Positions 1,029-24,625 of a stretch of 33,501 bases of DNA are shown here, piece by piece (within the stretch, counting starts at the first letter, position 1; each line of letters begins with the position of its first letter). Source of the DNA: a virus. Location of the stretch: IMG/VR virus record IMGVR_UViG_3300033146_004341, positions 1 to 33,501 of that record; one strand, given 5' to 3'. The position numbers and the translations under genes are program-made. The notes below the pieces were generated by a model. That model made no database searches. It was not told the DNA's origin and worked only from the letters and a program-made list of their open reading frames with translations.

Positions 1029-1068
1029 GTATAATCAAAAATAAAAGATAATAAAGTAAAAAAATGGG

Positions 1069-1096
1069 TTGATTTTTGATAATTAAAAGATATAAC
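1069..1096 (+). promoter_or_regulatory. Early promoter P1 (sigma70-like)
   Basis: The -35 box TTGATT (1069-1074) and -10 box TATAAC (1091-1096) are 16 bp apart. The surrounding sequence, an A run, then GGG, TTGATTTTTGA and GATATAA, recurs at 5249 and 8537. The -10 box ends 42 bases before the ArdC start. Unlike the other two copies this leader has no hairpin; it keeps only the TTTATTTATTACACACA stretch before ATG. Host RNA polymerase recognition is inferred from the hexamers. Confidence 0.75.
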
Positions 1097-1138
1097 TTCA
1101 ACACACATAAAAATATTTTATTTATTTATTACACACAA

Positions 1139-1951
1139 ATGATAAAAGCAGAAAATATAATTGTCAATCAGTTGATAAAGGGACTTGAAAAATGAAACAT
1201 TCCTTGGAGAAAAACTTGGATAACAAAATGACAAAAAAACTTTATTAGTCAGAAATTATATAAAGGTTTCAATCAAATGTTATTAAGTTATATTGCAGAT
1301 GAAAATAAACGAAGTGATTGTTGGGTTAGTTATAAACAAGCTATTGAATTATGATGAAATTTAAAAGATGAGAAATGAACAAAAATTGTTTTTTATAAAA
1401 AAATCACAAAAAAAGAAAAATGAAAAGAGGATAAAGATATATTTTTCTTGAAATATTATAATATATTTAATTTATCACAAGTTAAATGAATTGATTTACC
1501 AAAACAAGAAAAAATTGAAATAAAAGAAAATAAAAATATTAGTAAAGATATAAAAAATTATATGGTAAATGAAAAAATAAAACCATTAGATTGAGAACCT
1601 TGTTATTCTCCATCAAATGATTATATAAAAATGCCGAATATAAATTTGTTTGATAATTCAAAAAGTTATTATTCAACTTATTTCCACGAGATAATTCATT
1701 CAACAGGAAATAGTAAAAGATTAGATAGAAAAGTTGAAATAAAAAACGAAACTGAATATTCAAAAGAGGAACTTGTAGCTGAAATTGGTTCTGCTATATT
1801 AATGAATGAAAATTGATTAGAATATAATAAGAAAAATACACAAGCATACATAAACTGATGGATAAAATTATTAAAAGATAAACCAAAAACAATTATAACT
1901 GCTTCAAATAAAAGTTTTGAGGCTGTTAATTATTATTTAAATGCTTTATAA
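1139..1951 (+). CDS. ardC: ArdC-like antirestriction protein
   Basis: The protein is 270 residues. The N-terminal part (NQLIKGLEKGNIPWRKTW) matches the ssDNA-binding N-domain of ArdC-type proteins (DUF1738). The C-terminal part has a zinc-metallopeptidase signature: H183-E184 and H187 in FHEIIHSTG, then SKRLDR and EELVAEIG, where the glutamates supply the further ligand seen in this family. ArdC proteins shield incoming DNA from restriction. Its place as the first gene behind the first early promoter fits a protein needed right after entry. Many TGA codons read as Gly, for example in LEKGN and IELGGN. The start is the first ATG after the TTTATTTATTACACACA leader. Family assignment is strong; cleavage activity is not shown for this protein. 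Confidence 0.85.
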
Positions 1952-2298: not shown

Positions 2299-2317
2299 AA
2301 AATATAATTAAAAAAAG

Positions 2318-2344
2318 CCTGTTATTAATTTAATAGGTTTTTTT
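2318..2344 (+). terminator. Intrinsic terminator after the structured RNA
   Basis: CCTGTTA (2318-2324) pairs with TAATAGG (2331-2337) through seven pairs including one G-T, with a 6-nt loop, then seven T residues (2338-2344). The upstream A run can extend the stem against the T run. The next gene starts 21 bases later. Confidence 0.75.
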
Positions 2345-2693: not shown

Positions 2694-3548
2694 ATGTTAT
2701 TAGAACAATTATCAGAACAGCAATTTTCAATACCATATAGACCGAATATTGCTAAAAAAATATGAGTAATTCCTGCAATTATACTTCAACAAATGATTTA
2801 TAGAGGGGGGAAATGAAAGTTTTATAAATTTACTGGAAATGTTAAACATAAATTATATAAAAATTGAGATAGTTGGAGCGAGGAATTATGATTAACATTA
2901 AAAGAATTTACATATAACCTTAAAAAAATAGCTTTTAAATTATGAAAAACAGCTAATACTATAAAAAAAGAAAATGCTTTAATTATTTATTATAAAGATA
3001 ATAATAATTTAACACGATATGAGATACAAAAGGACAATATAGAACAATTCCTTAGGACTTTACAAAATGTTTCTCCCTTAGGAAATGACAATTTGTCAGA
3101 ACCTAAGAGAGTTACAAATTGTAATAATCTATATACAGAGAATACTACAAAAAATACTACATATAATAAAATAAATATAAAAGAAAAACAATTTGATGAA
3201 TTCATAAAATTATATCCACTTAAAAAAAGTAAAGCTAAAGCTAAAATATATTATATGAGGAATAAAAATATAATTCATAATGAATTAATGGAGGCTGTAA
3301 AAAGAATGATAAAAGACCACGAATATAAAAAAGCTCAATGAATTTGGGTTGAAGATTATAAACACCCTAGCACACGACTTTACAATGAATGTTGGACAGA
3401 TGAGTATGAGGAAATTAATATAGACGAAATTAAAAAAAATGAATTAGAAACCGAATTAAAAGAAACCGGATGAAGTGAAAATTTTATCAAAAAATATTGA
3501 ATAAAAGAAAAACACAGAATAAAAGTTTTATTATCTAAAAAGAAATAA
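2694..3548 (+). CDS. Phage replication initiator or helicase-loader-like protein
   Basis: This 284-residue protein has a helix-rich N-terminal half that opens IPYRPNIAKKIGVIPAIILQQ, typical of winged-helix DNA-binding domains in phage replication proteins. A low-complexity Asn/Thr-rich linker follows (about residues 140-165), then a C-terminal domain ending near KHPSTRLYNECW. The pattern KHPSTxLNxxxW is a familiar ending of phage and plasmid replication proteins of the lambda O or primosomal DnaT-like type. It sits two bases upstream of a DnaB-type helicase gene, the usual partnership of origin binder or loader with helicase. Origin recognition is inferred; the binding site is not identified. 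Known family features: winged helix plus C-terminal helicase-interacting part. Confidence 0.7.
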
Positions 3549-4795: not shown

Positions 4796-5239
4796 ATGAA
4801 AAAAAAAGAAAAATTAAATGCAGGGGTATTATCAAAAAGATACTTAAATGGCGAAAGATTATTTAAATATGAGGAGGACTATTTGAGAAAATTCTTAATA
4901 AGAAAAGCAGATGATTTATTTAGTAAGTTTATCAGAAATAGGGATAAATATAAAGATTGTATAAGTTATTGAGCAACTGGATGTCAAAATAAAATCCAAA
5001 ATGCTTGTCATTGGATTGGGAGATGATACTATTCACATAGACGAGATGAAGACAATGTTTATTGATGATGTGTTTCTTGTAATGCTTACCACCAACAAGA
5101 ACATTGAGCTTTTTTTGAAAGATTTCAGACAAAAAAGCACTGACAAAAATGGGTGGATGAACAATATTTTATGAGGAATAAAAGAAAACCCAAACTAAAT
5201 CAACTATTTGAGATAATAAATAAGTATAAAAAAAAGTAA
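4796..5239 (+). CDS. ninG: NinG-like recombination nuclease
   Basis: The 147-residue protein carries the cysteine and histidine pattern of the lambda NinG (Rap) family: C-ISYGATGC, then an A-C-H-W-IGRGYYS stretch, a basic and acidic run, and GGCVSCNAYHQQEHG. The central GRGYYSxRxDE segment and the later N and H residues correspond to the HNH-like metal site. NinG proteins act on branched DNA in phage recombination. TGA encodes Gly in ISYGA, IGRGYY and VYGGC. It follows DnaB by 27 bases and is the last gene before the second early promoter. The usual histidine of the AGH segment is replaced by a Cys-His pair (NACHW), a small deviation. Family call is good; the precise substrate is inferred. 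Confidence 0.8.
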
Positions 5240-5248
5240 AAAAAGGGG

Positions 5249-5276
5249 TTGATTTTTGAATTAAAAAAGATATAAA
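5249..5276 (+). promoter_or_regulatory. Early promoter P2 (sigma70-like)
   Basis: TTGATT (5249-5254) and TATAAA (5271-5276) are 16 bp apart in the same AAAAAAAGGGGTTGATTTTT context as the copy at 8537. The likely start is near 5283, exactly where the conserved hairpin begins. It should drive the recombination genes starting at 5366. Confidence 0.8.
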
Positions 5277-5282
5277 CTAATC

Positions 5283-5337
5283 AACCAATACAGGTAATTA
5301 TTAAATACGATATTTACACTGATTACCTTTATTGATT
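5283..5337 (+). ncRNA. Leader hairpin, copy 1 of a covarying pair
   Basis: Three stacked helices form one long hairpin at the predicted 5' end of the transcript: P1 5283-5290 with 5330-5337 (one C-A mismatch), P2 AGGTAAT 5292-5298 with ATTACCT 5322-5328, and P3 TAAAT 5302-5306 with ATTTA 5312-5316, closing loop ACGAT. A one-base internal loop separates P1 and P2. The second copy (8573-8625) keeps every helix, and the P3 closing pair changes from T-A to C-G. Possible roles are RNA protection, translation control or protein binding; none is shown. Confidence 0.65.
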
Positions 5338-5365
5338 ATCGCTTTTATTTATTACACACACAAAA

Positions 5366-5653
5366 ATGGATAGATTGAAAATATTACTTTTAACAGCAGG
5401 ATTAGGACTAAAAAAATATAAAGATTTAGTAAAACAAAATGAAAAATTATTTTGAGAAATATTGGAAAATAAAATTACAGAATATTTTGAGTTATGGTTT
5501 CAAGTAAATAAGGAAAAACTAGAAATTGAATATATTACAAAGTTAGAGGAAGATTGATACACAAATGAGGAGGCTTTGGCTTTTTATGAAACAATCAGAT
5601 GATATGATGATTATAAACAATGGGCAAGTGATAAGTGTATGGAAACAATTTAA
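5366..5653 (+). CDS. Hypothetical protein, 95 aa, first gene of the recombination operon
   Basis: It starts DRLKILLLTAGLG, a mildly hydrophobic stretch too short for a clear membrane anchor, and continues as an acidic, helix-prone protein rich in Glu, Lys and Tyr (NKEKLEIEYITKLEEDGY). Two GEI or DGY-type glycines and one RGY are TGA. There are no cysteine clusters or catalytic motifs. It is the first gene behind the structured leader of promoter P2 and precedes the ERF gene by 29 bases, which contain a GTTTTAT element. I do not recognise a family. Its leading position suggests an early accessory or regulatory role, by context only. Confidence 0.65.
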
Positions 5654-5682
5654 AAAGTTTTATTTATTTATAAAAAAATATT

Positions 5683-6183
5683 ATGTTAAAATTATATGCA
5701 AAGATGATGACAATTCAAAAAGAAAATTTGGCTATTAATAAGGACAGTAAAAATCCGTTCTACAAGTCAAATTACATTAGCTTAGATAATTTGGTTTCAG
5801 TATTAACTCCATTTCTTAATAAATTAGATTTATTTCTTTATCATAAAACAGAAAATAAAGAAGTAAAAACAACAATTGTTGATATAAAATCTGGGGAGGA
5901 AATAAGCTCATCTTTTCCAATGATAGATGACTTAACACCGCAAAAATTAGGAAGTTGTATATCATACTGAAAAAGATATAATATAGGACAATTATTTAAT
6001 ATAATCACAGATAGGGATGATGACTGAAATGTTGCTAGTGAAAAAGTAGAAAAAGCAGTAAAAAAAGATGTAAAAATAGAATGTAAAAAATGCAAAACAG
6101 AAGTTTCAAAACAAGTTGCAAGATTTAGTTATGATAAATATGGAAAAGTTTTATGCTTAAACTGTCAAAAATGAGAGAGATAA
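5683..6183 (+). CDS. erf: ERF-family ssDNA-annealing recombinase
   Basis: The product has 166 residues. The N-terminal domain carries ERF hallmarks: NPFYKSNYISLDNLV (near residue 25), PFLNKLDLFLYHK, a short strand pair with SGEEISSSFPM, then TPQKLGSCISYGKRYNIGQLF and DRDDDGN, matching the Q-x-x-G-S-x-x-x-Y-x-x-R-Y core. The glycine of SYGKRY and of DDDGN are TGA codons. The C-terminal tail has two CxxC pairs (CKKC and CLNC), a likely zinc finger, which some ERF proteins carry. It would anneal single strands in recombination-dependent replication. It overlaps the downstream PD-(D/E)XK nuclease by 13 bases, so exonuclease and annealing protein are co-translated as in Red-like systems. Confidence 0.88.
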
Positions 6184-6668
6184 AACACATATCTTGAAGT
6201 AACTTAAATTGATTTGATTTATATAAGGAACAACGATATAATAATTATGTATTATGAATAAAATGAGAAACAAACAAAGCTATGACATTTGGGAGTGAAT
6301 ACGAGGAAATAATGGGGCAAACATTATATAAATGAATGGAACAACAAATTAAAATAGAGGAATACATAGAGGGATACAAAATATTATGATTTGTTGATTT
6401 TGGGGATGATGATATGTGGATTGAATGTAAAACAAAAAGCTGATGGCGAACAGAAAAACAAATTAAAGAAAGTTGGCAATTTAGAATATATAATCATTTT
6501 AGATGAAAAAAAATGTTTTATATACATCAATATAATAAAAAACAAGATAAATATAGAGTTGAAAGTATTGGTTGGGATGATACATATTTTATCCCGGACA
6601 TATACAGTAAAATTAAAGAGGTTGAAAGGTGTTTGAATGAAAATAATGTGAGGCTTTTAAAATATTAA
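6171..6668 (+). CDS. PD-(D/E)XK nuclease, probable recombination exonuclease
   Basis: The protein is 165 residues. The core is visible: D76 in GFVDFGDDD, E85-C-K87 in WIECKTKSG, and Q103-x3-Y107 in WQFRIYNHF, which match motifs I-IV of RecB, Cas4 and lambda-exonuclease-type nucleases. The N-terminal part has S-x-S-x-L and TFGSEYEE, also found in such enzymes. Metal-dependent DNA cleavage is expected. It overlaps the end of the ERF gene (ATG at 6171 inside its last codons), so a coupled 5'-3' exonuclease plus annealing protein pair is the best reading. Several glycines of the core are TGA. The family is strong; direction and substrate are inferred. Confidence 0.8.
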
Positions 6669-6676
6669 AATAAATT

Positions 6677-7075
6677 ATGCATAAAGAATTATTAAATAAA
6701 TTAAAAAAATATTCAGATAAACAAGAGGTATGATTTGATAGACATAATCAACAAACATTAGAATTATTATGCTCCGATTTGAGAATAATTGTTTGAAAAC
6801 TGTTGATGAGGGTTAATAATTGACAGGCACGAAGAAAACAACAAGAGGCAATATATGTGGATACTTTGAAAAATGATACAACATATAAAAGCGATAAAAA
6901 ATGTAAAGATAAGTTTGAATTAGACAATGCAGATAAAATGATGGAGTTTAGACTTATGAGGGGAACACTTTTATTTTTAGAACAAGCATTGATTGCTTAC
7001 CAAAATAAAGCAAAAGCATATACTAATAATCATATTGCTTATATGCACGAAACAAATTTAATAAATAATAAATAA
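6677..7075 (+). CDS. Hypothetical helical protein, 132 aa
   Basis: The sequence is predicted mostly helical, with heptad-like patterns (LLNKLKKYSDKQE, LELLCSDLRIIVGKLLMRV) and a long charged middle (NDTTYKSDKKCKDKFELDNADKMMEF). A more hydrophobic helix, MRGTLLFLEQALIAYQ, lies near residues 92-107. No nuclease, zinc or nucleotide-binding motif is seen. It sits 8 bases behind the nuclease gene within the recombination operon. It could be an accessory partner of the ERF and nuclease pair, but that is from position only. Three TGA codons read as Gly. Confidence 0.65.
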
Positions 7076-7100
7076 GTTTTATATAAAAAAAAATAATATT

Positions 7101-7340
7101 ATGGAAACAAGATACAATGCAAGTGGGATGAAAATAGATTGAACTGATTTGTTGAAACAAATTGAGGACACAGTACATCAGATAAAAATGCAAGGAAAAA
7201 ATATGACAAGGCATAAATTGTGCAACAGTATTGATTTGACATATTCTTGAATAATAAGAGCAATGAAAACCGGAAAAATGAGGATAAAGACAATTAATAA
7301 GTTGAAAAGAGTTTGAATAAATGTTAAAATAATTGGTTAA
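7101..7340 (+). CDS. Small HTH DNA-binding protein
   Basis: This 79-residue protein contains a helix-turn-helix of the Cro or XRE kind: NMTRHKLCNSIDLTYSGIIR followed by AMKTGKMRIKTINKL, giving a first helix, turn, recognition helix and a final helix. TGA in TYSGIIR encodes the glycine just before the recognition helix. The basic surface fits DNA binding. It lies between the recombination genes and the ssDNA-binding protein, 25 bases behind the previous gene, with a GTTTTAT element in the gap. A role as an early transcription switch is likely but its operator is not identified. Confidence 0.65.
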
Positions 7341-7370
7341 AAAAGTTTTATATATTTAATAAATATTATT

Positions 7371-7691
7371 ATGAAATATAAAGGAAAGGTTGTAAAGGTT
7401 TGAGAAATTACACAGGTTGGAACAAAAAAGTTTGATAAACAAGATGTTATATTAGAGGAACTTACAGATAATGAGCATAAGGGTTGATTGATGGTTACAT
7501 TTTTTTGAGATAAAGTTGATGTTGTTGGAGTGAGTAAAATTCAAAAATGAGATGAGGTTGAAATTAGTTTGAATTGCAGAGTTAATGAGTATAATTGAAA
7601 ATATTATAATAATATAACAGGTTGGAAAATTGAGAGGTTAAGCCCAAAGACCGATGGGGATATTTCAGATTGAGATGATTTCCCATTCTAA
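7371..7691 (+). CDS. DUF3127-like single-stranded DNA-binding protein
   Basis: The product is 106 residues. It reads as one OB-fold: KYKGKVVKVGEITQVGTKKFDKQDVILEE, a loop, then LMVTFFGDKVD, KGDEVEISLNCRVNEYNGKYYNN and TGWKIERL, matching DUF3127 proteins. The tail ends in an acidic stretch, DGDDFPF. A C-terminal D-D-x-P-F is the protein-interaction tip of bacterial SSB, which recruits replication and repair enzymes. Glycines in VKVGE, FFGDK, NEYNGKYY and SDGDD are TGA. It follows ERF and nuclease genes and is closed by a strong terminator two bases after its stop. It should coat single strands during phage replication and recombination. Confidence 0.82.
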
Positions 7692-7692
7692 C

Positions 7693-7714
7693 AAAGGGCT
7701 TTCGCCCTTTTTTT
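7693..7714 (+). terminator. Strong intrinsic terminator after the SSB-like gene
   Basis: AAAGGGC (7693-7699), loop TTTC and GCCCTTT (7704-7710) form a 7-bp hairpin followed by more T residues to 7714. The following gene starts only 23 bases downstream with no room for a promoter, so some read-through is implied. Confidence 0.85.
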
Positions 7715-7736
7715 ATTAAATAAAATTTATTACACA

Positions 7737-8516
7737 ATGGAAAAAGATTTTGATATAAAGGCATTCAATCCAGTAATTAAGGAACTTAATGAATTAGCTA
7801 TGATTTATTGAAATATAACAATAAATTGAGTTGATGATGTTGAAAATTATGAGCTATGTAAAAAAGCTATAAAATTAATAAACAAAAAAAATAATGAAAT
7901 TAAAAAAGTATTAAAAGCAAAAAGAGAAGACGCAAAGAATTATCAAAAATTTATCATACAACAAGAAAAAAATATTATATGAATAACAACAGGGGTAAGC
8001 GATAATTTGAAAGCAGAGATAGAAAAAATCAACGAAGCAAAGGAGGAAATACAGAGAAAAGAATTACTTCCATATAGAAATAGAATACTAAAAATAAATA
8101 ATCTTACTTGTAGTGAGGAATTGTTGCTAAGTTTTTCAGAGGAGGACTTTTCATTTTGGATTATAGACCAAATAGAAATAGCTGAAAGAGAAAAAAAAGA
8201 ACAAGAAAAAAAAGAGGCTGAATTGGAAAAACAAAAAAAAGAAATAGAAAAAGCTAAACAAGAGGCAATAATTGAAACAGAAAAAAGATTGAAAAAAGAG
8301 GAACAAGAAAGAATATTAAATGAATGATTGCAAAAGAAAATAGATGAGGAGGACAGAATATTAGATAAAATGAAAAAAGAGGAACAAGAAAAAAAAGATA
8401 AAAAATATCAAGCTTGGTTAAAGAAAAACAAGTATAATAATGAAACAGATATAATAGAATATCTTGATTGAAAAAAGGCTATATTTCGTTTAATAGATAT
8501 ATATATTGAGGAATAA
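7737..8516 (+). CDS. DUF1351-like coiled-coil phage protein
   Basis: The protein is 259 residues. The N-terminal part, ITINGVDDVENYELCKKAIKL followed by INKKNNEIKKVLKAKRED, resembles DUF1351 proteins found beside phage recombinases. A central conserved-looking block is LPYRNRILKINNLTCSEELLLS and FSEEDFSFWI. Residues about 150-225 are a very charged coiled coil of Glu, Lys and Gln. The C-terminus ends TDIIEYLDGKKAIFRLIDIYIEE. In other phages such proteins sit next to ERF, SSB or nuclease genes, as here. It probably assists recombination or replication as a scaffold; no catalytic residue is seen. Its start lies 23 bases behind a terminator and after a TTTATTACACA leader. Confidence 0.6.
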
Positions 8517-8536
8517 AAAAAAAGTAAAAAAAGGGG

Positions 8537-8564
8537 TTGATTTTTGACTTTTAATAGATATAAA
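8537..8564 (+). promoter_or_regulatory. Early promoter P3 (sigma70-like)
   Basis: TTGATT (8537-8542) and TATAAA (8559-8564) are 16 bp apart in the same sequence block as P1 and P2. The transcript would begin near 8571, at the second copy of the leader hairpin, and serve the small-gene operon starting at 8660. Confidence 0.8.
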
Positions 8565-8572
8565 CTAAACAC

Positions 8573-8625
8573 ATCAATACAGGTAATAATCAAATACGAC
8601 ATTTGCTCTTATTACCTCTAATGAT
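8573..8625 (+). ncRNA. Leader hairpin, copy 2 of a covarying pair
   Basis: The helices are P1 ATCAATA 8573-8579 with TAATGAT 8619-8625 (one A-A mismatch), P2 AGGTAATAA 8581-8589 with TTATTACCT 8609-8617, and P3 CAAAT 8591-8595 with ATTTG 8601-8605, loop ACGAC. The one-base internal loop between P1 and P2 is kept from the first copy at 5283-5337. P2 is two pairs longer here and P3 has a compensatory pair, so the fold rather than the sequence is conserved. Confidence 0.65.
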
Positions 8626-8659: not shown

Positions 8660-8992
8660 ATGGAAACAACATTAAACAGGTTACAATTAGAAAAATCAAG
8701 GTTAGAACTGGTAAATGTAGAATTAAAGAAAAGGTTGCAAAAAGATTTATTAAATGAGGTTACTCGGGTATTGGAAGACTTATATAAAAATGAATTTAAA
8801 ATAAAAAGTTATACTGATATGATAAAAATACTTGAAACAGATTTAAATGCTAAAAAAGATTTCATATTAGAACTTTCAAATAACTTAGTAAATTGGCATA
8901 TTTCAAAATCAACTTGTAAGGTAACAAATTTGCAAAATTTACGAAATATGGAGGGAACACAAGAAGTATTGAACCTTTTAAAATCTATATAA
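8660..8992 (+). CDS. Hypothetical coiled-coil protein, 110 aa
   Basis: This 110-residue protein has no TGA codon. The N-terminal two thirds form a long amphipathic helix (ETTLNRLQLEKSRLELVNVE, then ELKKRLQKDLLNEVTRVLEDL) with a heptad leucine pattern. The C-terminal part, WHISKSTCKVTNLQNLRNMEG, is less regular. No catalytic motif is visible. It is the first gene behind promoter P3 and its leader hairpin, and a terminator follows four bases after its stop, so it may be its own short transcript. Function unknown; oligomerisation through the coiled coil is likely. Confidence 0.65.
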   Translation: METTLNRLQLEKSRLELVNVELKKRLQKDLLNEVTRVLEDLYKNEFKIKSYTDMIKILETDLNAKKDFILELSNNLVNWHISKSTCKVTNLQNLRNMEGTQEVLNLLKSI

Positions 8993-8995
8993 TAT

Positions 8996-9016
8996 GAGGG
9001 CTTGCCCTCTTTTTTA
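8996..9016 (+). terminator. Intrinsic terminator after the first P3 gene
   Basis: GAGGG (8996-9000), loop CTTG and CCCTC (9005-9009) are followed by seven T residues (9010-9016). The next gene starts 22 bases later behind a TTTTATTTATTATACACACA leader, again leaving no room for a new promoter. Confidence 0.75.
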
Positions 9017-15573: not shown

Positions 15574-16773
15574 ATGGAAATAGACTTTTCAGATAAAAAA
15601 CTTTATAACAAGAAATATATACCATTATTAAGAAATAATAAGAGGTATAATTTTTTGATGTGATGAGGTTGAAGTTGAAAAAGTGTATTTATTAGTCAAA
15701 AAGAAATAATAAAGAGCTTTCAGATAAAAGACAAAATAATGTGCGTTAGGAGAATTAAAGACACATTAAAAGATAGTTGTTTTGCTGAATTAAAATCAAG
15801 AATAAGGGAATGGGATTTGGAACAATATTTTAAAATAAAAACCTCCCCATTATCAATAAGAAATGTTTTGACTTGATGTGAATTCATTTTTAGATGATTA
15901 GATGATAGCGAGAAATTAAAATCTGTTGAATGAGTTGCAAGGATATGGATTGAGGAGGCAACAGAAATTAAAAGAGATGATTTTGACCAGTTAGATTTGA
16001 GGTTGAGGGGGAAAAAAGAAATGCAAATCACTGCTACTTTTAATCCTACGGACGCAGAACACCGACTAAATACAGACTTTTGGATGTTTTGAAATACTAA
16101 TCAATCAGAGTGCTTACATTCTACCTATACAGACAATGCTTTTGTATGAAAAGAATATAAAGAGGTAATGGATAGACTAATAATAACAAATAAAAATTAT
16201 TATAATATTTATGCTTTGGGAGAATGGGGGGTTTTAGAATGAATGATATTTGAGAATTGGGATACTGTGAAAGAAATACCAAAAGAGGCAAAACTATTGT
16301 GATATTGAAAAGATTTTGGATATACAAACGACCCAACAACATTGATTGCTTGATACTTATATAATAACGAGCTATATTTTGATGAGTTGATATTTGAAAG
16401 AGGTTTGACAAACCAAGATATTATTGAAAGATATGGAGAATTAGGGATAAGTATGGATGATGAAATATGGGCAGATAGTGCTGAACCAAAATCAATAGAG
16501 GAAATATACAGGGGTTGATATAATATCCATTGAGTTACTAAGTGAAAAGACAGTATAATGTATTGAATAGATATAATGAAACAATACTTTATTCATATAA
16601 CAGAAAAGAGCTGAAACTTACATAAGGAATTCAAAAAATATGTTTGGGCAAAAGATAAGACAGGAAAAACACTAAATAAACCAATAGATTTATATAATCA
16701 TTGAATTGATTGAGCAAGGTACTTGTGTATGATGACTATAAATCAATCTAGCGATAATGTTTCATTGTTTTAA
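15574..16773 (+). CDS. terL: Terminase large subunit
   Basis: The protein is 399 residues. The Walker A loop is MGGGGSGKSVF (residues 29-39), where four of the five glycines are TGA codons, which alone argues for UGA as glycine. Walker B is VARIWIEEATE, followed by the coupling motif TATFNPTD. The nuclease domain has GKDFGYTNDPT with the first catalytic Asp, an IWADSAEP segment with the second, and NHGIDGARY near the C-terminus with the last. The enzyme packages DNA with ATP and cuts concatemers. ATG 15574 is the first possible start because a TAA lies four codons upstream in this frame. It is shorter than many TerL proteins but complete. Confidence 0.95.
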
Positions 16774-16789
16774 TTATTTATCAACTAAA

Positions 16790-17263
16790 ATGCTAATCGT
16801 TAAAATTAAAGAATATTTGAACGGACACACCATACAAGAACTGTATAATAATACAGGGATAAGCACTGGTGTTTTTTATTCTTTGTTAAAAAGAGATTGG
16901 AAAAAATATAACAAAAATACATTAGATATTTTATATAGTTTTTTCAGATTAGATAGGGACGAATTTTACAATAATAATCTTAAAAAATGGTATCCAAAAA
17001 CATTATCTTTATTTGGGACATTAGTCAGATATAAAAGAGTAAGAAAAAATATAGATATTGATGAGTTGGCACGTATGATGAAAATTGAAAAAAGGGCTTT
17101 ATGTAGATTAGAAAGTTGAGACGCACTACCAACATTTGATAGTTGGACAATACAACATTTAATAATTGCTTTAGATTTCACAAAAGAGGAAATAGAAAAT
17201 ACAAAAAAATATATAGACAATATGAAACGATTGGAAAAAACAGTTAAGAAATATGAAATTTAA
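16790..17263 (+). CDS. Protein with two helix-turn-helix domains
   Basis: The 157-residue protein has two HTH units. The first is near residues 10-45 (GHTIQELYNNTGISTGVFYS, then LLKRDW). The second, near 70-105, is XRE-like (LVRYKRVRKNIDIDELARMM and KIEKRALCRLESG). The start ATG 16790 is chosen over an upstream in-frame ATG at 16757 that would overlap the terminase gene. It lies between the terminase and the portal genes, where phages rarely keep a regulator, and the first copy of the late repeat follows its stop directly. It is a good candidate for a regulator of late transcription, possibly acting at those repeats. That link is inference only. Confidence 0.7.
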
Positions 17264-21699: not shown

Positions 21700-21724
21700 T
21701 AGGAATATTATCAATAAATAAATT

Positions 21725-21751
21725 AACTAGTCAGAAATGGCTAGTTTTTTT
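21725..21751 (+). terminator. Strong terminator after the capsid gene
   Basis: AACTAGTCA (21725-21733) and TGGCTAGTT (21738-21746) pair over nine bases, including one G-T, across a GAAA tetraloop, and the T run continues to 21751. Late repeat copy 4 follows two bases later, so one transcript ends and the next may begin here. Confidence 0.85.
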
Positions 21752-21752
21752 A

Positions 21753-24570: not shown

Positions 24571-24582
24571 TATTTTAGAAAG

Positions 24583-24608
24583 ACTATCTTGTAAGAGATA
24601 GTTTTTTT
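24583..24608 (+). terminator. Terminator after the tail-tube gene
   Basis: ACTATCT (24583-24589) pairs with AGATAGT (24596-24602), with a 6-nt loop, and the T run continues to 24608. It separates the strongly expressed tail-tube gene from the following tail-assembly genes. Confidence 0.75.
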
Positions 24609-24625
24609 ATACTTAAAAAATATTA

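Follow-up and report, generated by a model that had tools for sequence, protein, structure and literature searches.

A duplicated promoter, leader hairpin, and start-site cassette in a code-25 phage, with a possible role in protecting mRNA 5′ ends

Two promoter cassettes and their leader hairpins

We analyzed a 33,501-base linear virus record (IMG/VR IMGVR_UViG_3300033146_004341; "the window" below means this whole stretch of DNA), in which two copies of one cassette, made up of an A-rich tract, a sigma-70-like promoter, a hairpin at the predicted 5′ end of the RNA, and a start-site segment, stand before two operons. Reading frames in the window are interrupted by TGA in the standard code, and reading TGA as glycine (genetic code 25) opens a run of plus-strand genes. 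Under this code we recognize ArdC-like, replication initiation, DnaB, NinG, Erf, SSB-like, terminase, and portal genes; capsid and tape-measure genes are judged to be present from size and order. Code 25 is used by Gracilibacteria and Absconditabacteria and by prophages in them (PMC10746230). The phage uses the reassigned code of this group, from which its host is presumed to come. The region of the promoters is probably early, judging by its replication and recombination genes.

The pattern GGGTTGATTTTTGA-N8/9-AGATATAA (30 bp) occurs exactly at 1066, 5246, and 8534 on the plus strand and in none of 100 shuffles, which bears out the promoters that a first-pass annotation had placed at 1069, 5249, and 8537. 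At these three positions TTGATT is followed, after 16 nucleotides (nt), by TATAAA (promoters 2 and 3) or TATAAC (promoter 1), an arrangement of the sigma-70 type (TTGACA-like and TATAAT-like hexamers 16–18 nt apart). The A-rich tract AAAAAAAAGTAAAAAAA upstream is also common to the promoters, and the unit is thus wider than the annotation had stated. Promoters 2 and 3 show no differences at 45 positions outside an 8-nt spacer and differ at four of the eight positions within it. Sites loosely like this promoter precede starts in unrelated phages.

Folding and shuffled controls support the hairpins that the annotation had proposed for promoters 2 and 3, where the RNA is predicted to begin. Copy 1 folds at −14.1 kcal/mol (z = −5.8) and copy 2 at −12.9 kcal/mol (z = −4.0); in neither case was any of 200 dinucleotide shuffles as stable. 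Each hairpin spans ∼53 nt and contains a one-base mismatch, a 1 × 3 internal loop, and a small end loop (ACGA). If transcription starts as predicted, 7 nt after the −10 box, three nucleotides would be left unpaired at the 5′ end of copy 1 and two at that of copy 2. The hairpin is the sole structure within the first 56–60 nt of the predicted RNA, and within 56–80 nt the only other fold is a weak 3′ element in copy 2. The start segment lies outside the hairpin, and the start codon follows ∼29–34 nt past it. Fold energy alone ranks both hairpins only about 20th in the window; they are set apart by position and repetition. The leader of promoter 1 (41 nt, before the ArdC-like gene) is unstructured, at −0.1 kcal/mol, in agreement with the earlier statement that this promoter lacks the hairpin. 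A terminator reading of the leader hairpins was rejected, the stem being followed by no U-tract, and a comparison of the leaders with Rfam covariance models gave no match at E values up to 5.

Coordinates are given in Table 1. The products of the two first genes behind the hairpins are unrelated to each other.

Table 1. Promoters, leaders, genes, and terminators discussed in the text (ORF, open reading frame; aa, amino acids)
Feature	Position	Strand	Remarks
Promoter 1	1048..1097	+	A-rich upstream tract, GGGTTGATTTTTGA, AGATATAA; exact pattern and alignment with promoters 2 and 3
ArdC-like gene	1139-1951	+	Behind promoter 1
Terminator within promoter-1 operon (no leader hairpin)	2311-2344		21 nt before ORF 2365
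Promoter 2	5228..5280	+	AAAAAAAAGTAAAAAAA + GGGGTTGATTTTTGA + 8-nt variable spacer + AGATATAAACTAA
Leader hairpin, copy 1	5284..5336	+	Predicted RNA start ∼5283; covariance-model score 79.9 bits, by construction
Start-site segment TTTTATTTATTACACACACAAAA	5343..5365	+	Before ORF 5366; repeats at 1120, 8639, 9017
First gene behind hairpin 1	5366..5653	+	95 aa in code 25; no family above cut-off
Erf-like single-stranded DNA annealing protein, further ORFs, SSB-like protein			3′ of ORF 5366
Intrinsic terminator, end of promoter-2 operon	7693..7710	+	27 nt before next ATG (7737)
Promoter 3	8516..8568	+	Built as promoter 2
Leader hairpin, copy 2	8573..8625	+	Predicted RNA start ∼8571
Start-site segment TTTTATTTATTACACACTCAA	8639..8659	+	Before ORF 8660
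First gene behind hairpin 2	8660..8992	+	110 aa; no family above cut-off
Intrinsic terminator GAGGGCTTGCCCTC-TTTTTT	8996..9009	+	Directly behind ORF 8660; 28 nt before next ATG (9038)
Helix-turn-helix (HTH)-like protein	16757-17263		
Terminator in late region	24576-24609	+	17 nt before a gene

Covariation between the two hairpin copies

The two copies are identical at 46 of 54 aligned bases, including seven of nine unpaired positions; two of the eight changes fall in unpaired positions. Two pairs have changed on both sides with pairing kept: the closing pair of helix P3 (17–31), U-A in copy 1 and C-G in copy 2, and pair 14–36 of helix P2, U·G in copy 1 and A-U in copy 2. Copy 2 has one more pair at the outer end, U-A, where copy 1 has C·A. 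The first-pass annotation had described the P3 change correctly (as T-A to C-G), and likewise the retention of the one-base internal loop, which is C·U in copy 1 and C·C in copy 2. Its extension of P2 by two pairs requires that G·U be left out of the count; in RNA, P2 has nine pairs in either copy, and what was taken as an extension is the second co-change, U14·G36 to A-U. The view that structure rather than sequence is conserved goes too far: The two compensated pairs speak for structure, but the sequence is equally well kept, and breaks without compensation, which the annotation had named as evidence to the contrary, are seen at two of 20 pairs.

With eight random changes placed on copy 1, 0.8% of trials had at least two compensated pairs, and 0.4% when broken pairs were also to be no more than observed; the corresponding figures starting from copy 2 are 0.6% and 0.03%. 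The fold of copy 2 at least equals that of 98% of copy 1 mutants carrying the same types of change. When the register is slid by 1–3 columns, pairing falls to 29%–47%, compared with 93%. A shuffle control of pair counts reaches the observed score in 128 of 500 cases, and two sequences cannot give better discrimination. The hairpin has diverged less than the promoter spacer (8/54 vs. 4/8 differences; P = 0.04, Fisher's test); the linker 3′ of the hairpin has also diverged, and the cassette flanks carry indels between copies. Selection therefore likely acts on base pairing, a case that is fair but thin with two paralogous copies.

From pairing alone, a plus-strand RNA cannot be told from a minus-strand RNA or from a palindrome in the DNA; for copy 2, the minus strand gives the more stable fold of the two. 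We prefer RNA over DNA mainly because of how the hairpins are oriented and because they sit right where the RNA is predicted to start.

Searches for relatives and other signals in the window

Relatives were sought among viral contigs, genome contigs, phage and plasmid records, and the loci of partial relatives, all of which are distant. A covariance-model search for more copies, proposed with the first-pass annotation, found none beyond the two, either over the window (next match E = 0.23) or over the related loci. In the viral contigs the exact promoter pattern and the start segment have no matches, and a looser promoter pattern has 38, of which none is accompanied by this hairpin or lies in a close relative. 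The 24 matches of the hairpin core there were read as chance, none having the promoter or the fold, and the cassette DNA gave only weak, unrelated matches to phage and plasmid records. No relatives of the Erf protein were found in the viral contigs, nor of terminase and ArdC in the genome contigs. The terminase relatives (L004, L046, L047, and L048, at 61%, 58%, 53%, and 48% identity) lack the promoter and the hairpin, and none shares the early region; since most of these fragments stop short of that region, the absence says little. As far as these searches can tell, the promoter–hairpin cassette is new in this lineage, structured phage leaders as a kind being already known. A separate group of contigs (L064, L066, L067, L069, L070, L072, L073, L077, L078, and others; G+C fraction ∼0.35) has a promoter-like GGGGGTTGATTTTTGAAAATTAATCCCCATATAAATA in common, followed by structured leaders (e.g., AGTGATAGTTCAGTACTAAGCC), with no protein match to this phage.

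The segment TTTTATTTATTACACACA, which closes the cassette, belongs to a genome-wide UUUUA start signal and not to the hairpin device. TTTTA stands at −28 to −13 of 31 out of 47 start codons, against 4% of other ATGs, and a Shine-Dalgarno-like box at only one of the 47; UUUUA thus appears to serve as a start signal throughout the genome without Shine-Dalgarno pairing. The same signal is seen in the code-25 relative L047 (6/8) but not in L004 or L046. Absconditabacteria are listed as Shine-Dalgarno-scarce (PMC10783764).

Elsewhere, the plus strand carries five exact copies of AAAGACATTGAATAA (17263, 19357, 21753, 24556, and 30193), all in the structural region and each 65–70 nt ahead of the following start codon; allowing up to two mismatches raises the count to 11 (1.6 expected). 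It may be a promoter of late genes or an element of their leaders. Positions 3050–3130, inside the replication initiation gene, hold nested dyads (TTACAAA..TTTGTAA, CTTAGG..CCTAAG, and TGACAATTTGTCA; −26 kcal/mol), possibly a replication origin within the initiator gene. The plus-strand terminators of Table 1 belong to a set of terminator-like intergenic hairpins that also includes 979–1028 and 21719–21752. Those at 7693, 8996, and 24576 end 17–28 nt before a start codon, too close for a promoter to fit in between. Of all RNA folds in the window, that at 2241–2344 is the strongest: a 19-bp hairpin (−27.6 kcal/mol, z = −6) and then the terminator of the promoter-1 operon. The long hairpin would displace a shorter 5′ one (−14.4 kcal/mol) that is able to fold before it, and pairing is also possible between the 5′ arm ACAGGCU and the AGCCUGU arm of the terminator. 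The element looks like an attenuator or switch inside that operon; it matches no Rfam family at its cut-off.

Possible functions and likeness to known systems

We tentatively favor, at somewhat less than even confidence, a reading in which the cassette is a duplicated unit whose hairpin protects the 5′ end of the mRNA in cis. The two cassettes would drive two operons; as each RNA emerges, its first ∼55 nt would close into the hairpin with 2–3 nt free at the 5′ end, and this would keep 5′-end-dependent pyrophosphohydrolases and ribonucleases off, so affecting the life of the message that carries it. In Escherichia coli, 5′ secondary structure stabilizes mRNA, RppH and RNase E needing single-stranded 5′ ends (PMC3997798). 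Given this need, the place of the hairpin at the predicted 5′ end, and a start segment left outside it, protection seems the plainest explanation. That the hairpin has been kept while spacer and linker diverged, before genes that are unrelated, counts for a function of the hairpin itself. Several observations weigh on the other side. There are only two copies, paralogous, and the searches returned none elsewhere. Conservation of the 1 × 3 internal loop and of the ACGA loop equals that of the stems, which a plain protective stem would not require. Pair 3–47 of helix P1 (A-U in copy 1) is A·A in copy 2, and loop-end pair 22–26 (A-U in copy 1) is A·C. Unpaired cells number 3/44 for plus RNA, 2/44 for minus RNA, and 4/44 for Watson-Crick DNA. 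The RNA starts, moreover, are predictions, and the RppH and RNase E facts come from E. coli and not from the presumed host. Of the first-pass reading, a structured 5′ end at two copies of one promoter and a co-change above random thus stand, with two paralogous copies as their sole evidence; the roles it offered, 5′ protection and translational control, are both possible from the sequence.

The repeat could instead act as DNA, an operator for a phage regulator that would sit immediately 3′ of two out of three promoters that are otherwise alike, the RNA fold being incidental. Watson-Crick pairing in 40 of 44 cells, a minus strand that pairs as well as the plus strand, and the HTH-like protein of the phage agree with this, but U14·G36 is a pair in plus RNA and not in DNA, no further copies exist elsewhere in the genome, and dimer operators are usually shorter than a 53-bp quasi-palindrome of 22 pairs; we consider an operator unlikely. 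It is distinctly unlikely that the hairpin has no function and was merely carried along in a fairly recent duplication of the promoter, its compensated changes arising by chance or by template switching, which can produce paired changes without selection (quasipalindrome mutation). The 85% identity of the hairpins, their number, the two broken pairs, and the shuffle control would fit such an origin; the diverged spacer and the indels in the flanks indicate that the duplication is not that fresh, and random changes rarely preserve this fold. A hairpin through which a bound phage or host protein turns translation of the first gene down or up would account for the asymmetric internal loop and the ACGA loop kept in both copies, yet it seems improbable with the start codon and start segment beyond the hairpin, two unrelated first genes, and differences at position 33 of the internal loop and position 26 at the loop end. 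Very improbable is an RNase III processing site, although such sites in T7 early RNA are two helices parted by an internal loop and the hairpin, with an asymmetric internal loop and ∼22 base pairs in an imperfect stem, resembles them; at the 5′ end there is no upstream message to cut off.

Rather unlikely, too, is a put- or nut-like RNA, in which the nascent hairpin would bind RNA polymerase or a phage partner so that transcription passes the terminators at 7693–7710 and 8996–9009. Both hairpin-led operons meet a terminator right behind a stop codon; the gap between terminator and next gene measures 27–28 nt and contains no copy of the promoter motif. HK022 likewise has two similar structured RNAs, putL and putR, behind its early promoters (PMC9378689). 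However, terminators before genes also occur in operons without the hairpin (2311–2344 and 24576–24609), which weakens any general need for antitermination; a separate motif (AAAGACATTGAATAA) appears to serve the late genes; and put, which suppresses terminators with no help from a protein, consists of two stem-loops in ∼70 nt, where we find a single hairpin with internal loops. A boxA plus boxB arrangement was rejected, the boxA-like GCTCTTA inside copy 2 reading ACACTGA in copy 1. We would give little credence to the bolder version, in which the twin hairpins are cis-acting, polymerase-modifying RNAs that, together with short terminators set right ahead of the following start site, extend put-like read-through beyond the lambdoid phages to one of genetic code 25, while the switch-like RNA at 2241–2344 governs the hairpin-less operon.

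Little is known of gene timing in phages of Gracilibacteria and Absconditabacteria, and a paper on such phages deals with the genetic code and leaves promoters unmentioned (PMC10746230). For other code-25 phages, the window provides a defined pattern of early promoter, a leader structure that recurs, a start signal, and a candidate motif for late genes, all of which can be sought there.

Under the protective reading, the closest likeness is to the 5′ stabilizing stem-loops of the ompA/papA type, which share with the phage leaders a hairpin at or near the (here predicted) 5′ end, a start site outside it, and unrelated genes behind; the phage hairpin differs in its length, its internal loops, and its two copies in one phage. 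T7 early RNase III sites are also imperfect hairpins with an internal loop in early RNA, but lie between genes, whereas the phage hairpin is 5′-terminal. Lambda nut likewise places a hairpin in the early leaders of two operons; the present one is much longer than boxB, and no N-like protein is recognized. In HK022, putL lies directly behind PL, and the put RNAs (∼70 nt, two stem-loops each) let polymerase pass terminators (PMC9378689). The phage resembles HK022 in its two similar structured RNAs behind early promoters, and in early operons with terminators before further genes; it differs in having one hairpin and in having terminators in hairpin-less operons too, and the likeness is one of arrangement.

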